From contig QCCT01000002.1 in NCBI GenBank assembly GCA_003281165.1, forward strand, positions 62,001 through 126,000: a DNA stretch of 64,000 nucleotides. The letters are read 5' to 3'. Under the pieces are notes generated by a model. The model saw only the letters and a program-made list of their open reading frames with translations, was not told the origin of the DNA and made no database searches. Each line of letters starts with the position of its first letter. Within the stretch, counting starts at the first letter, position 1. Positions 366 to 5,132 of this stretch are shown one piece after another. Both the position numbers and the translations under genes were made by a program. Source of the stretch: Prochlorococcus sp. AG-347-M18. GTDB lineage: Bacteria; Cyanobacteriota; Cyanobacteriia; PCC-6307; Cyanobiaceae.

Positions 366-536
366 AAATAATTTTTTATTTATCCCCTAGTTTAATTTGC
401 ATAATTCATCGTATATAAAAAGACTTGCCTATTCAATTAATATAGGAATATATCATAGGCCACTCCTAAGGATTCCTTCATAAGAGCCTTCAAATTTGGT
501 TAGAAATATTATTGTAGTCTCTCAATCCCCTTTAGC

Positions 537-542
537 TATAAT
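537..542 (+). promoter_or_regulatory. Relic -10 element ahead of the tRNA-Ser remnant
   Basis: A perfect TATAAT lies 31 nt before the first base of the tRNA-Ser 5'-half remnant. The intact tRNA-Ser has the same hexamer 27 nt before its first base. The similar placement suggests that the original tRNA promoter was left behind with the remnant. No convincing -35 box is visible. The rest of 366-573 holds no gene that I can support. Confidence 0.4.
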
Positions 543-573
543 AATTAGGAGTGAAAAACAGAATAACTCATTT

Positions 574-613
574 GGAGGGGTGGCAGAGTGTTTTAAGGCT
601 CTAGTCTTGAAAA
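574..613 (+). pseudogene. tRNA-Ser(UGA) 5'-half remnant
   Basis: Forty bases match the first 40 bases of the intact tRNA-Ser(UGA) at 2734-2820 with three mismatches, all in the D-arm region. The match covers the acceptor 5' strand, the D arm and the anticodon stem and loop. It stops one base after the anticodon loop, where the sequence becomes AT-rich and unrelated. The 3' anticodon strand, variable arm, T arm and acceptor 3' strand are missing, so this cannot be a functional tRNA. It lies on the same strand as the intact gene and marks the left edge of a putative integrated segment. Confidence 0.85.
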
Positions 614-664
614 TTAATTTGCGTTTTAGTTATATCAGTTGTTTTGAAGATAACTTGTCATACA

Positions 665-685
665 GTTACGAATTGGTTACGAATT
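665..685 (+). repeat. Tandem 10-bp direct repeat GTTACGAATT
   Basis: GTTACGAATT occurs at 665-674 and again at 676-685, an 11-bp period (one helical turn), 52 bp downstream of the tRNA-Ser remnant. Helically phased short repeats near an attachment junction can be arm-type recombinase or regulator sites, but nothing else supports a function here. Confidence 0.4.
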
Positions 686-742
686 TATTGCTTTAGTCTT
701 AACTACAAAAATAATCTATAATCTTGTAAAAATTTTTAGGAT

Positions 743-1858
743 CTATATATCTGAAATATTTTCTGATGTTGTTGATTTTTGATTATTAGGATGATAATAA
801 CCTTCCTCTTCAATTTTTTTTACTATCCAAGCTGAATAGGTATCCTGCATAAATTTGTAATTTCTTAATTTACCAATTTTTTTTACTAAACCATGGCCTT
901 GATCAATTTTCGATATGACATGGGAGCTTGGCAATTCTAATTGACTTTTATCTTTAGAAATTAAAAATGCTCTTATATCTTTGCAAAGTATCTCATTTGT
1001 ATCTAAAGAATAATTCTCAATTAATTTTATGTCTTTTAATCTAAACTTAATCATTGCATCTCTTAAAGAATAATTAAGCAAAAGTAACTCATTCCAATCT
1101 GTCTTTTTTTCTGGAATTTTATAATCCTGAGTATTTAATTGTTTTTTAAATTCTTTAAAATACTTTATACAAAGTGTAGTAATTTCTTGTTTGAATATTT
1201 TTAAAGATTCGGAAGATTCCTTACTTTCCCCATTAGCACTAATTTTAGGATTTTTGAGATCATTAATTTCTACAGAATAATCCTCTAGATCTTCTACAAG
1301 TTTCAGCGCGCAATAAATATCAAGAATCTCTCTACATCTTAGGCTCTGTGTCTCTTGCCTCATCAAATTGAAAACATTTTTAAATTCAGCTGGAGCAATT
1401 AAAACATTCTTAGCATACACATCTGATCTAACTGTCTTTGACTTAAACTGTTGACCAAGTGTAAGGTATTGGTCTTCAACAGCATTAATATATAAATTTC
1501 CAAAACTAGTATCCCAGGGTAAAGAGGGTGTATTTGTTTCTTGAATTATTGGAATAATCTCAAATAACTCAGGCTTTTTGGGTTTATTTTCATAATCGAC
1601 GCAGGTTATATTAAATAATTTTATAAAAGTATTGAAAGCAACTCCTGATTCAAGCTCAGCAACTTTTTGTTGAATAAGATCTCTAAATTGAAATTTAAGA
1701 GACTCTGATTTTGCCTGTTTAAATGACTGCAAGTTCAAATAAATATTATCTAATAGATCTATTGCAGTTTTAGCTGAGGTAACTGTAGCTTTTATATCTT
1801 CCTGGTTAAATTCACTTAGAGGTTTTTGAATTAGATTGATCTCATTTAAATCAGACAC
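743..1858 (-). CDS. Hypothetical protein (371 aa) in the tRNA-Ser island
   Basis: A long uninterrupted reading frame starts at a GTG (MSDLNEINL). I recognise no family. The protein is Lys/Glu/Leu/Ile-rich and looks soluble and mostly helical, with no signal peptide or membrane segment. Its C-terminal third is basic (KKIGKLRNYKFMQDTYSAW) and ends in a polar tail. There are no clear recombinase, helicase or nuclease motifs, and in particular no R...HxxR...Y signature of a tyrosine integrase. It is read towards the tRNA remnant and is divergent from the gene at 2020. Its length and clean frame argue for a real gene; its role is unknown. Confidence 0.65.
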   Translation of the reverse strand: MSDLNEINLIQKPLSEFNQEDIKATVTSAKTAIDLLDNIYLNLQSFKQAKSESLKFQFRDLIQQKVAELESGVAFNTFIKLFNITCVDYENKPKKPELFEIIPIIQETNTPSLPWDTSFGNLYINAVEDQYLTLGQQFKSKTVRSDVYAKNVLIAPAEFKNVFNLMRQETQSLRCREILDIYCALKLVEDLEDYSVEINDLKNPKISANGESKESSESLKIFKQEITTLCIKYFKEFKKQLNTQDYKIPEKKTDWNELLLLNYSLRDAMIKFRLKDIKLIENYSLDTNEILCKDIRAFLISKDKSQLELPSSHVISKIDQGHGLVKKIGKLRNYKFMQDTYSAWIVKKIEEEGYYHPNNQKSTTSENISDI

Positions 1859-2019
1859 TTTTACATCATGTTAGTAATAATAGAAATTATACGTCAGATT
1901 TCGAAATATCCAAGGATTTTAGGATAAAAGTGGCAGATAAGGCCGAATAAACAATAATTTAAGCTTGTAAATAGGAATATAATTGTCTTATTAAGATAAC
2001 AAATTGTAAAAGAAAGTTC

Positions 2020-2427
2020 ATGCATCGAACTTTCGAAGTAGAGTTAGTCGTAAGTTATTTATTTGTTATCTATTCAATGAAGGGAAAAAAACTTGGCTGT
2101 TCTCTGAATTATCAGAATGGGCAGAAACACTATTTTCGAGTAATTAAAATGTGGCCCTGTTCTAAAGGGAAGGGTTTCATTGGCTTTGGAGAACATTTTC
2201 ACACAAAGGATCGATTTAGAATTTGGAGCGAAAAAAATTTTTATCCTGTTAATGGCCCAGTTTGCTGTTATGAAATAATTGATATAGATTTATTCAAAAT
2301 ATGTGATCATACATCAGAAATCATTTGTGATATGGGTCCATTAATCGATCAATATCAACCAAAATTCACTATATTAACAATTCCAGAGGGTGAGGAATAT
2401 CAAACAGAATTATTTAATCCAGAATAA
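2020..2427 (+). CDS. Hypothetical protein (135 aa) in the tRNA-Ser island
   Basis: An unrecognised protein rich in aromatic residues and cysteine (WPCSKGKGFIGFGEHFH, PVCCYEI). It may form a small beta-rich domain that begins near residue 20. The start is uncertain. The ATG at 2020 has a purine-rich stretch before it, while the ATG at 2077 (MKGKKLGCSL) would remove a hydrophobic N-terminal extension that may not be coding. It is followed 14 bp later by the small coiled-coil gene at 2442, so the two are probably co-transcribed. A TATAAT at 1978-1983 could drive them. No function can be assigned. Confidence 0.55.
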   Translation: MHRTFEVELVVSYLFVIYSMKGKKLGCSLNYQNGQKHYFRVIKMWPCSKGKGFIGFGEHFHTKDRFRIWSEKNFYPVNGPVCCYEIIDIDLFKICDHTSEIICDMGPLIDQYQPKFTILTIPEGEEYQTELFNPE

Positions 2428-2441
2428 TTTAGAAAATATCC

Positions 2442-2663
2442 ATGGAACTATCATTAGCCAAAGATTATCTTCTATATAAAAAAATATATCAAAGAAGACT
2501 TGAACAACAAGATGAATTCAATGCGAATCTAGCTATTGAATTAAGCGAAATAATAAATAGATTAGAGTTAATAGACAAAAAACTTAATTTTCTTGAACAA
2601 AGAATTGAAAAATTAGAGCAACAATCAACTAATGGCTTTGCTCAAGAAAATGAATTTTTTTAA
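2442..2663 (+). CDS. Small coiled-coil protein (73 aa)
   Basis: This short protein has heptad-like Leu/Ile spacing from about residue 28 to 60 (IELSEIINRLELIDKKLN, then FLEQRIEKLEQQ), indicating an alpha-helical coiled coil. It is charged, soluble and has no signal peptide. It follows the 135-residue ORF by 14 bp and ends 70 bp before tRNA-Ser, so it sits at the right edge of the putative island. Oligomerisation is the only property that the sequence shows; the function is unknown. Confidence 0.5.
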   Translation: MELSLAKDYLLYKKIYQRRLEQQDEFNANLAIELSEIINRLELIDKKLNFLEQRIEKLEQQSTNGFAQENEFF

Positions 2664-2700
2664 TTAAAATAAAATTTCCTTTTCGAACTAATGATGCTGT

Positions 2701-2706
2701 TATAAT
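2701..2706 (+). promoter_or_regulatory. -10 element of tRNA-Ser
   Basis: A perfect TATAAT ends 27 nt before the mature tRNA, giving an expected 5' leader of about 20 nt. No strong -35 hexamer is visible at the usual distance. If the island interpretation is right, this promoter belongs to the incoming element. Confidence 0.5.
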
Positions 2707-2733
2707 TGGAAAGTTAAATTAAATATTTAACCT

Positions 2734-2820
2734 GGAGGGGTGGTCGAGTGGTTTAAGGCTCTAGTCTTGAAAACTAGCGTGTCTGCAAGGGCACCGTGGG
2801 TTCGAATCCCACCCCCTCCG
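2734..2820 (+). tRNA. tRNA-Ser(UGA)
   Basis: An 87-nt class II tRNA. The seven-pair acceptor stem (GGAGGGG with CCCCTCC) is followed by discriminator G. The anticodon arm is CTAGT-CTTGAAA-ACTAG with anticodon TGA, which reads UCN serine codons. There is a long variable arm typical of serine tRNAs, and the T arm is GTGGG-TTCGAAT-CCCAC. CCA is not encoded. The first 40 bases are duplicated in degraded form at 574-613, so this gene appears to be an integration site. Confidence 0.97.
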
Positions 2821-2916
2821 TTCTAAAGAATAACTTTCTAAATTTAAAAATTGAATTTAAGAACTGTTTATAACTTATTTCACATTTCAATTTCTTGAAT
2901 ATTTCCTAATTAAAAA

Positions 2917-3639
2917 ATGTCAAATAAAGGTGAGATAATTACAGAAAATAGGCTCGGTTTCGAAAAGTCTAATAAAGCATTAGGTTTTCTTTATAAGGAA
3001 TGGTATGAACTTATTTCAAAACTTCTTTCTGAAATAAATGGGATTAATATTGAATTGGGTTGCGGTGCAAGTTTTATAGATCAGATAAATAAAAGCATTA
3101 AAAAAACAGATGTTTTTTTAAATTCAAATACTGATTTCAAACTTAATGCAATGGATATAGGAAAAAGCTTTGAAAACCAAATATCAAATTTAATCTTAGT
3201 TAATGTTTTTCATCACATAAGTGATCCAGAATTATTTTTGAAATCAGCAGAAAAGTCTCTTTTGGTTGGAGGAAGAATAATTATGATTGAACCAAGCAAT
3301 AATTACTGGAGTAGGTTGGTCTATAAACTTATAGGACACGAACCCTTTGATACAAAACAAATTGAATGGAAATTTGAATCCAAAGATCCACTACTAGACT
3401 CAAATCAAGCACTCTCATGGATAATTTTTGAGAGGGATTATCAGAAATTCAAACGTTTATTTCCTAGGTTTTCTTTGATTCAAAAAAAGAATATGATGCC
3501 ATTTTCTTATTTATTAAGCGGAGGGCACTCTTTCAATACAAGAATTGGTAAGTTGATTAGTATAACTAGAAGTTTTGAAAGATTCTTCTTTGATAAATAT
3601 TTGGGGATATTTAATTTAATATGTCTAGAAAAAATTTAA
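2917..3639 (+). CDS. Class I SAM-dependent methyltransferase (240 aa)
   Basis: Motif I (IELGCGAS, about residues 46-53) is the glycine-rich SAM loop, and NLILVNVFHHISDPE (about residues 92-106) matches the motif IV region of ubiE/Methyltransf_11-like enzymes. GGRIIMIEPSN follows as the next core strand and loop. The C-terminal part contains segments that may hold the acceptor. The substrate cannot be read from the sequence. Its 3' end overlaps the next gene by 19 bp, so the two are probably translated together. The position beside tRNA-Ser suggests accessory glycan or lipid modification. Confidence 0.75.
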   Translation: MSNKGEIITENRLGFEKSNKALGFLYKEWYELISKLLSEINGINIELGCGASFIDQINKSIKKTDVFLNSNTDFKLNAMDIGKSFENQISNLILVNVFHHISDPELFLKSAEKSLLVGGRIIMIEPSNNYWSRLVYKLIGHEPFDTKQIEWKFESKDPLLDSNQALSWIIFERDYQKFKRLFPRFSLIQKKNMMPFSYLLSGGHSFNTRIGKLISITRSFERFFFDKYLGIFNLICLEKI

Positions 3640-4169
3640 ATTTAAAATCAACAATTTTTAAAATTTTTATTTTTTATATAATCATTTATTTATTTGCTTT
3701 TTTTCTTAGATACAACAATGGCTTTGAGAATATAATAATTGACATTGAATATAGATATTTGGCATTAATAAATATTATTTCTATCTTTCTAGGCCTACCT
3801 TTATCCATCGTATTTGACTTTATATTGATAAAGTTTTTCGGTTTGAAATATATTATTTTTTTTGCACCAATCTTAACTACTTTAGGGGTTGCTCAAATCT
3901 TACTACTCAGAAAAACAAACTTTAGATTTTCAAAAAACATTCCTTTGAAAAAAAATATAATAAATCATCGACTTAAAAATATATTTGAAAATATTACTTT
4001 CAAACCAATTTTCATATTAATAATACGTACTTTCCCAATATTGCCTTTCTCCTTAGGAAGCTATTTCATCGCATCATCGGAAATAAATAAAAGATTGATA
4101 ATTCTGTATTCACTTTTTGGAGCATATTTCTACTATTTTTCGCTTCTCTTTATTATCAAAAGTGCTTAA
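3621..4169 (+). CDS. VTT/TVP38-like integral membrane protein (182 aa)
   Basis: A very hydrophobic protein with about five predicted membrane helices. The stretch IRTFPILPFSLGSYFIAS (about residues 136-153) resembles the conserved R-x-hP-h-hP-h segment of VTT (DedA/TVP38/TMEM64) proteins, and GLPLSIVFDF (about residues 58-67) fits the first re-entrant-loop region. DedA-type proteins are linked to lipid scrambling and membrane homeostasis. The resemblance is only partial here and the protein is short, so the family call is moderate. It overlaps the preceding methyltransferase by 19 bp. It is extremely AU-rich even for this genome. Confidence 0.55.
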   Translation: MSRKNLNLKSTIFKIFIFYIIIYLFAFFLRYNNGFENIIIDIEYRYLALINIISIFLGLPLSIVFDFILIKFFGLKYIIFFAPILTTLGVAQILLLRKTNFRFSKNIPLKKNIINHRLKNIFENITFKPIFILIIRTFPILPFSLGSYFIASSEINKRLIILYSLFGAYFYYFSLLFIIKSA

Positions 4170-4275
4170 TAGAAAAAGATATTTTATTATTAATTATTTT
4201 GCATGTAAAAAGTTCTACATTATTTTCCCCTTTCGGGATTGTTATAGAATATTTTCAGAAAATATTAATTAAATT

Positions 4276-4956
4276 TTGAAATTAATTAAAACACCATGGG
4301 GTGAAATATCTTCGGAGGTGAATTTATTCCCCATTTATTACATTCTTTTTATTTATGGATTTGTTTATATTCTTCCTTATGGGGAAAATATTGTTGGTTT
4401 AACATGGTTTGATTTATTAAAACTTGAAGATGGTCCTTTGGAGTGGCTTCAGTTTTCTGAATACTTAATTTCATCAATATTTGGTTTTTTTATCTATTTC
4501 AAAAGTAAACATAAAAATACAATAAATTCATTTATTTGGTTAATTCTCAGCGCTTTCTGCTTCTTCGTTGCCGCTGAGGAAATAAGTTGGGGGGAGAGAA
4601 TAACTGGTTTATCACTAGATTCATTAACAAAAATAAGTATTCAAAGTGAAACTAATTTACATAATCTTCCGTTTTTTCATGATTACTTTCTTGATCCTAT
4701 CTTGATTGCAATTTGTCTTTTATTTGGTTGGATAGGTTGGAGAAAGTGGCCATATTTGAATTCAATCCCAAATAAAAAATTAAGCTTATTTTTCTTAATC
4801 ACAGCTTTATATATTTTCTATTATGAAATCTCATGGGCTTCCACAGTAGAACACATAAGAAATGATTTAGAAATTTATGAATTTTTACTTTCAACTGGTA
4901 TATTTTTGCATTATTGGAACAACTTCAAATTATTTCTTAAAGGAAATTCTCAATAA
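4276..4956 (+). CDS. Multi-pass membrane protein with EEISWGER motif (226 aa)
   Basis: The start is a TTG, because an in-frame stop lies immediately upstream and no ATG is available near the N-terminus. About six hydrophobic helices are visible. AAEEISWGERITG (about residues 98-110) followed by QSETNLHNL (about 123-131) are signature blocks that I recognise from an uncharacterised bacterial membrane-protein family, whose conserved acidic and His residues suggest a catalytic or metal site in the membrane. The function is unknown. It stands alone with about 100 bp of AT-rich spacer before it. Confidence 0.6.
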   Translation: MKLIKTPWGEISSEVNLFPIYYILFIYGFVYILPYGENIVGLTWFDLLKLEDGPLEWLQFSEYLISSIFGFFIYFKSKHKNTINSFIWLILSAFCFFVAAEEISWGERITGLSLDSLTKISIQSETNLHNLPFFHDYFLDPILIAICLLFGWIGWRKWPYLNSIPNKKLSLFFLITALYIFYYEISWASTVEHIRNDLEIYEFLLSTGIFLHYWNNFKLFLKGNSQ

Positions 4957-5132
4957 TTTGAATTAAATATAATTTGTTTAATTAAAATTCCTTCAACAGA
5001 AACAAGGCTTAGACTAAAATTTGCTGTAAATAATAACTTGCATTATTAAAGCCCTAGTAATTAAAATTTATAATCAAATTTTACACTCTTCTTTTTTATT
5101 CTTGTTATTATTTGTTTTTAGTAAAAAAGATA

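Follow-up and report, generated by a model that had tools for sequence, protein, structure and literature searches.

A displaced 5' half upstream of tRNA-Ser(UGA)

How does the 5' half of a tRNA gene come to lie upstream of the intact gene, and what is the DNA between the two? The question is raised by a stretch of 64,000 nt from Prochlorococcus sp. AG-347-M18 (contig QCCT01000002.1, positions 62,001 to 126,000 of the forward strand; in the following, the window), in which ARAGORN predicts a single tRNA, tRNA-Ser(UGA), at 2733-2821 on the plus strand. The first 44 nt of this gene (2733-2776) recur on the same strand 2,160 nt upstream, at 573-616, with 40 of 44 positions identical (BLAST E 2e-14 in a comparison of 400 x 300 nt, the other matches listed all having E of at least 0.6). 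Counted by hand, 37 of 40 positions are identical over 574-613, and the identity extends one base beyond the anticodon loop, to 2773. A preliminary description of this DNA had reported both the copy and its end point, which are confirmed here, and had read them as an insertion footprint. The window carries a worn 5'-fragment integration at tRNA-Ser(UGA) that is non-autonomous and has many counterparts within the genus. Very probably, it goes back to site-specific integration within the anticodon stem-loop by a mobile element carrying its own promoter and 5' half, which stranded the previous ones and is stacked on an older insertion. The locus comprises the following parts.

1-554 (no strand): older foreign insert, right part, in place of the ancestral promoter region; not colinear with genome G019, in contrast to the DNA further left and the stranded half, which are colinear with it
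511-572 (+): stranded promoter region preceding the old 5' half, with a TATAAT visible by eye at 537-542; groups with tRNA-side regions of genomes G232, G216, G128 and G043
573-616 (+): stranded 5' half of tRNA-Ser(UGA), which bounds the insertion on the left; 40 of 44 nt as in 2733-2776, the match running into the 3' side of the anticodon stem
619-687 (+): element left end, directly after the stranded half; typed by local scores to recombinase-bearing elements and minis
2671-2732 (+): element right end, providing the intact tRNA with a new promoter region; by eye, TATAAT at 2701-2706; cluster 14
2733-2821 (+): intact tRNA-Ser(UGA) (ARAGORN), read as element-supplied 5' half plus resident 3' half; 94 nt 100% identical to G019

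Recurrence at tRNA-Ser(UGA) loci of Prochlorococcus

For comparison, 60 tRNA-Ser(UGA) loci of Prochlorococcus were surveyed, namely the window and 59 of at least 149 other listed places, picked non-randomly by similarity rank and length of available contig and covering 815 kb upstream and 294 kb downstream of the tRNA; a match to the gene is present in 246 of 266 genomes. An extra set of 20 integrase-anchored loci was counted beside them. Half copies were counted at a length of at least 28 nt and E up to 0.01, which excluded several 16-17-nt 3' ends downstream of the tRNA. Positions in the tRNA are numbered from t1 = window 2733, with the anticodon stem-loop at t29-t45 by inspection.

The window's own version of the 5' half (43-nt pattern, up to three mismatches) was found in 1 of 266 genomes, its own. 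The arrangement as such, a 5' half upstream, recurs in 32 of the 59 other loci, and a chance match is therefore ruled out. With 33 of 60 loci carrying it, the feature is neither unique to this strain nor fixed in all strains. These 33 survey loci hold 37 upstream 5'-half copies, and 16 of the 60 hold 17 downstream 3'-half copies, with another 12 and two copies, respectively, in the integrase-anchored set. Not one of the 68 copies (54 in the survey) lies on the wrong side or strand, and neither a 3' half nor a reversed copy of at least 28 nt was found in the 815 kb of upstream sequence. In both sets together, the 5' copies end within t36-t45 in 41 of 49 cases and at t52 in eight, the latter having left ends whose opening bases, by inspection, resemble the tRNA; all 19 of 19 counted 3' copies begin at t28-t33. 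The 5' and 3' copies meet in or near the anticodon stem-loop, at one crossover region.

The distance from the tRNA to the nearest 5' copy is 164-168 nt in 15 of the 33 survey loci, 656-1316 nt in 13, and 2160 nt (the window), 7.1, 7.8, 10.0 and 11.6 kb in the others. The 165-bp form consists of the half, a left end and a promoter region without any gene, and it and the 1-kb form are presumably non-autonomous.

In the locus with the 11.6-kb distance (L074, G120:C1), urease and urea-transporter genes lie within the DNA separating 5' half and tRNA; urease alpha, UrtA and UrtC were confirmed by NCBIfam, and no recombinase homolog was seen beside the tRNA.

Empty sites and exchanged promoter regions

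A conserved small gene served as left-side marker (left anchor). In 8 of 17 anchored loci without a copy, its distance to the tRNA is 1071-1085 nt; in 15 of 33 loci with copies it is 1075-1108 nt, measured to the leftmost half. In the remaining loci the marker is further off, and additional genes often intervene. The stranded half in many strains occupies the position of the intact gene in empty strains, the tRNA having another promoter region. The upstream regions of 15 stranded halves fall into the group that also holds the ancestral one, and in most copy-bearing loci the tRNA's own upstream region differs from the ancestral group. A half is present in 28 of 37 loci with groups 14 and 15 versus 3 of 16 survey loci with groups 8 and 7 (Fisher p 1.8e-4, for groups selected post hoc, after they had been seen). 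Group 8 contains the ancestral promoter together with a similar one beside recombinase genes and is therefore not purely ancestral. Since nine of the 37 loci with group-14 or group-15 promoters show no half, the count of 33 among 60 may be a floor.

The preliminary description had named a strain lacking the interval as support for an insertion, and G019 is such a strain, sharing both flanks without the 2.16 kb. Apart from a short gap, the window locus is colinear with G019 from -5900 to -4638. Next, it has 2.46 kb of other DNA where G019 has -173 to -17, followed by 62 nt matching G019 -17 to +43 at the stranded half and by a 2.1-kb interval without counterpart; beyond the interval, the tRNA is 100% identical (94 nt) and the downstream region 87%. 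According to this alignment, two foreign stretches are present at the window locus, the older of which begins about 1.9 kb left of the window. Empty sites with colinear left flanks are also seen in G022, G044, G174 and G042.

The right-end region (2671-2732) clusters with 13 other regions of intact tRNAs and four stranded ones (cluster 14), apart from the group holding the ancestral regions, which supports the earlier suggestion that the incoming DNA brought promoter and 5' half. The companion claim, that the host's old promoter was stranded, needs revision: a promoter was indeed stranded, but not the ancestral one. The 62-nt stranded region scores 33 against G232, 31 against G216, 31 against G128 and 24 against G043 (maximum of 2000 shuffles, 12). 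It thus belongs with the promoters next to the tRNA at four loci that carry a recombinase, and an earlier insertion therefore probably came first. Because the promoter over the stranded half is of this element type, the locus probably records at least two stacked insertion events. The simplest history would be an earlier element with a promoter of the G232/G216/G128 type, followed by the present one.

Downstream of the tRNA, G019 also shares an insert with the window while lacking the 5' one. In the window, this insert (2822-5110) places three genes between the tRNA and conserved downstream genes and is common to 6 of the 59 other loci; its genes are methyltransferase-like and VTT-like (both below Pfam cut-offs), with a third to which no family was assigned. 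No 3' half above shuffles was detected in the 2.3 kb downstream of the window's tRNA.

Recombinase-bearing relatives

In genome G160, a 396-aa protein is encoded on the opposite strand, ending 209 nt 5' of the tRNA, and homologs (24-100% identity) occupy the same position in other genomes. A recombinase of this kind lies beside the tRNA in 22 loci examined, about 200-700 nt 5' of it, the carriers including Prochlorococcus sp. AG-347-L20 (G160), MIT 9302, AG-418-M08, AG-335-A05 and AG-469-F22. The G160 protein matches PF00589 at E 1.4e-4; in the case of the G115 homolog, the match is to an integrase PHROG (1.5e-7). Eight of the 22 loci have a 5' half 6.6-9.1 kb upstream. According to BLAST clusters, Prim-Pol and a VapE-like helicase are common to five of these eight (G232, G216, G043, G189 and G244), the first three of which also share a second recombinase and a TerS-like gene. 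Family tests with one representative per shared protein cluster gave 28.5 bits for Prim-Pol (cut-off 22.8), 205.6 bits for the VapE-like helicase, 72.4 bits for the second recombinase and 8.8e-6 to a terminase small subunit PHROG for the TerS-like protein. In one locus (L133 in G189), an older element's recombinase and promoter are stranded behind a newer element.

The left end in the window (619-687) resembles those of these elements, with local scores of 71 (G043), 58 (G216) and 54 (G232), and likewise scores 74 against the mini of G247 and 82 against G031 (maximum of 500 shuffles, 40). Ten of the 15 minis score higher than any shuffle (above 40, up to 74), and the other five lie at 32-40. 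Comparison among loci shows the footprint, an empty site, a replaced promoter region, a shared left end and recombinase-bearing elements of the same topology. Very probably, a mobile element recombined site-specifically within the anticodon stem-loop of tRNA-Ser(UGA): the old promoter and 5' half were left at its far (left) end, and the promoter and 5' half that it brought were joined to the resident 3' half, so that an intact gene with a new promoter resulted. The window copy would be a non-autonomous 2.16-kb member atop an older insertion. The enzyme would most likely belong to the family of tyrosine recombinases that other strains encode about 200-700 nt 5' of the tRNA, and would have acted either in cis before gene loss or in trans. 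The choice of recombinase, the timing, any mobilization in trans and expression of the tRNA from the new promoter are inferred.

The left ends in L133, L134, L136, L139, L140, L141 and L143 contain, inside the element and some 110-150 nt from where the stranded half begins, a sequence mimicking the anticodon stem-loop (for instance ctctagtcttgaagactagcg).

Cargo of the interval and alternative explanations

Between the two copies, three open reading frames (ORFs) of 371, 135 and 73 aa are found.

743-1858 (-): ORF of 371 aa, cargo candidate; no Pfam, PHROGs, PADLOC or NCBIfam match
2020-2427 (+): ORF of 135 aa; no Pfam, PHROGs, PADLOC or NCBIfam match
2442-2663 (+): ORF of 73 aa, coiled-coil-like; sub-threshold, coiled-coil-like Pfam and PHROGs matches only, no PADLOC match

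Distant homologs of the 371-aa protein, at 21-32% identity, occur in 8 of 265 other genomes, with no tRNA near them in the eight fetched loci of 2.4-4 kb each. Its structure model is mostly helical and of middling confidence (mean pLDDT 67.4), and a PDB fold search with it gave no match at E up to 0.001. Replication or packaging hallmark genes were not found in the interval with Pfam and PHROGs. Among 69 phage records matching the interval, the best ten hit the tRNA part only.

The cargo bears on the explanation that survives best beside an integration of the whole interval, namely that the 5' half does mark an integration and the three ORFs arrived later by other insertions or homologous exchange, in which case they would be uninformative on the mobile element. 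In favor of such a composite, the left end is typed with G043, G216 and G232 and the right end with cluster 14, which are differently distributed, and tblastn of the three ORFs (E 1e-4) gave no match in the 59 other loci. The latter also excludes that the same ORFs are conserved in all strains, an outcome that, according to the preliminary description, would have spoken against an insertion. Both end types, however, occur at this site, and elsewhere (L049, L092) one left-end type pairs with different right ends. Later arrival of the ORFs is regarded as rather unlikely.

Far less probable is simple segmental duplication of the 5' part of the tRNA, later split by unrelated insertions. A diverged copy (40/44) and the failure to find an integrase between the copies would agree with it. 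Against this, each of the 49 counted 5' copies lies upstream on the same strand and has its end within t36-t52. In many strains their left flank corresponds to the one that the intact gene has where the site is empty, and what follows on their right belongs to a few end types shared with recombinase-bearing elements; duplication was rejected as largely contradicted by these conserved ends. The least credible explanation, a conventional 3'-half element made to look reversed by inversion or rearrangement, could draw on the 3'-half elements existing on the tRNA's other side (16/60 loci) but was rejected in view of the 815 kb free of upstream or reversed 3' halves and of the orderly 5' topology at eight recombinase-bearing loci, the 5' half being in view in the elements of eight genomes.

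Several observations weigh against site-specific integration by an element of the recombinase-bearing kind. As already stated in the preliminary description, no integrase was found between the copies (Pfam, PHROGs and PADLOC on the three ORFs, NCBIfam on the 371- and 135-aa ORFs only). The G160 recombinase itself, at 22.2 bits, stays below the Pfam curated cut-off of 27.1. Fourteen of the 22 recombinase-bearing loci show no 5' half in 4.3-19 kb of upstream DNA; in G151 and G196 the half should have shown, because the left anchor is in view at 4.6 and 4.4 kb, respectively. The window's genome (87% complete) gave no match to VapE and a single distant recombinase match (E 8.6e-19), taken for the gene matched by 224 of 266 genomes, mostly at 24-26% identity. 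An excised circle or virion copy was not seen (0 matches in four viral-contig scans with the recombinase and three element-end patterns), and no degenerate ancestral 5' half rises above shuffles left of the older insert. Among the matches excluded as shorter than 28 nt, a 26-nt 3'-end match sits upstream in L037 and a 25-nt match is reversed in L092. At tRNA-Pro(TGG), moreover, 3' halves lie upstream in G093 (one; L201) and G016 (three), and the clean side rule of tRNA-Ser therefore fails there within the DNA seen.

Relation to known integration systems

Tycheposons are characterized by a deep-branching clade of tyrosine recombinases and by shared replication or packaging genes, and phage satellites of the SaPI/PICI type by integrase, primase, VapE helicase and small terminase. 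The window element shares integration at a tRNA gene with the former; no replication or packaging hallmark gene was found in it, Prim-Pol, VapE-like and TerS-like genes occurring in some full-length relatives. Compared by family models, the gene set of the SaPI/PICI type corresponds to that of some full-length relatives, whereas topology and site differ. Full-length relatives and tycheposons have in common the tRNA target, a tyrosine recombinase, the genus and some satellite-type genes, namely Prim-Pol, VapE-like and TerS-like (parts of PMC10872708, PMC10187409 and PMC11389934, besides general knowledge). The window element has neither recombinase nor replication gene and, with 2.16 kb, falls below the length of 4-200 kb given for tycheposons, which use seven tRNAs (both as quoted in PMC10872708). 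The suggestion of a small tycheposon-type relic or satellite hence holds insofar as the element fits a small non-autonomous relative, but the link runs through the likeness of its relatives, as the window element is without those genes. In the sections of PMC10187409 consulted, another recombinase of Prochlorococcus and Synechococcus, distinct from tycheposon integrases, is described upstream of tRNA-Phe or tRNA-Cys.

Footprints of the 5'-fragment class have been described before but are rare: in the part of PMC4383910 used here, Islander counts 159 islands with 5' fragments, compared with 3,760 that have 3' fragments. As in the window, the 5' fragment of these islands is displaced upstream of the intact gene (PMC4383910). 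The window locus has the same-strand upstream fragment and an empty site of this class, and no integrase was found within its interval. The "reversed topology" of the preliminary description is common at tRNA-Ser(UGA), where 5' halves lie upstream in 33/60 loci and 3' halves downstream in 16/60. Islander, as far as the same source text goes, drops intervals below 2 kb and tests for an integrase gene, whereas the nearest copies in Prochlorococcus are mostly 165-bp (15/33) or 0.66-1.3-kb (13/33) forms without recombinase, stacked at one gene. With no integrase and a size under the Islander limit, the 165-bp and 1-kb forms may cause the class to be under-counted.

In the portion of an archaeal review drawn on here, 5'-half integration with expression from the integrase side is said to be seldom met in bacteria (PMC8371274). 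The pTN3-like archaeal integrases treated there have their gene split on integration, whereas the Prochlorococcus recombinase gene stays whole. No description of this topology at tRNA-Ser(UGA) was found in the searched literature, consisting of partial texts and not including the primary tycheposon paper. As far as checked, two-sided stacking at one crossover, repeated change of the tRNA promoter region and the 165-bp forms are new.

A tentative view of the tRNA as landing platform

It is conceivable, though we hold it somewhat short of an even chance, that tRNA-Ser(UGA) is a two-sided landing platform with a single anticodon-loop site, where promoter-plus-5'-half elements stack upstream and 3'-half elements downstream, so that most lineages would express a probably essential tRNA from a mobile-DNA promoter, with the 165-bp units as minimal trans-mobilized form. 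tRNA-Ser(UGA) is generally considered essential, and in the complete genome G043 it is the sole tRNA with that anticodon. If this holds, imprecise loss of an element would cost the tRNA. The locus shows how one tRNA gene can gather insertions from both sides unbroken, and it suggests that mobile DNA can replace the promoter of a housekeeping tRNA repeatedly. Successive insertions can be read from the order of stranded halves. Whether such elements bind the host to themselves via tRNA expression can be tested directly in this system.

In inserts on both sides of the tRNA, a leader peptide (MKRFLLPLLAALALPTAVNA-like, own consensus) recurs at gene starts, fused to differing mature proteins. Relative to the tRNA, it is found in L036 (+326), L037 (-758), L049 (-688), L054 (+283), L060 (+1478), L073 (+1748) and L082 (+271), and 13 survey ORFs fit the loose pattern.

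Half copies at other tRNAs

In G043, 37 tRNAs were searched for half copies, in most cases up to 10 kb to either side (848 nt downstream in the case of tRNA-Ser). There, 5' halves occur only at tRNA-Ser(UGA), in three copies, and conventional 3' halves lie downstream of tRNA-Pro(TGG) and tRNA-Ala(GGC); the other matches reflect likeness among tRNA genes or one short reversed match. Among 20 loci chosen for a VapE homolog, ten held a tRNA. Upstream of tRNA-Pro(TGG), G130 has three 5' halves (L211, G130:C9, 6282-7899) and G002 has one (L205, G002:C1, 13823-13862), in both cases with the VapE homolog in the same locus, extending the 5'-half topology to a second tRNA.

At the same tRNA, locus L198 (G016:C15, 214-19958) contains nine partial tRNA-Pro(TGG) copies of at least 31 nt, eight of them 3' halves, together with a near-full copy and the tRNA itself. 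All share one strand at spacings of about 0.8-7 kb, with ORFs in the intervals, and the array looks integron-like.

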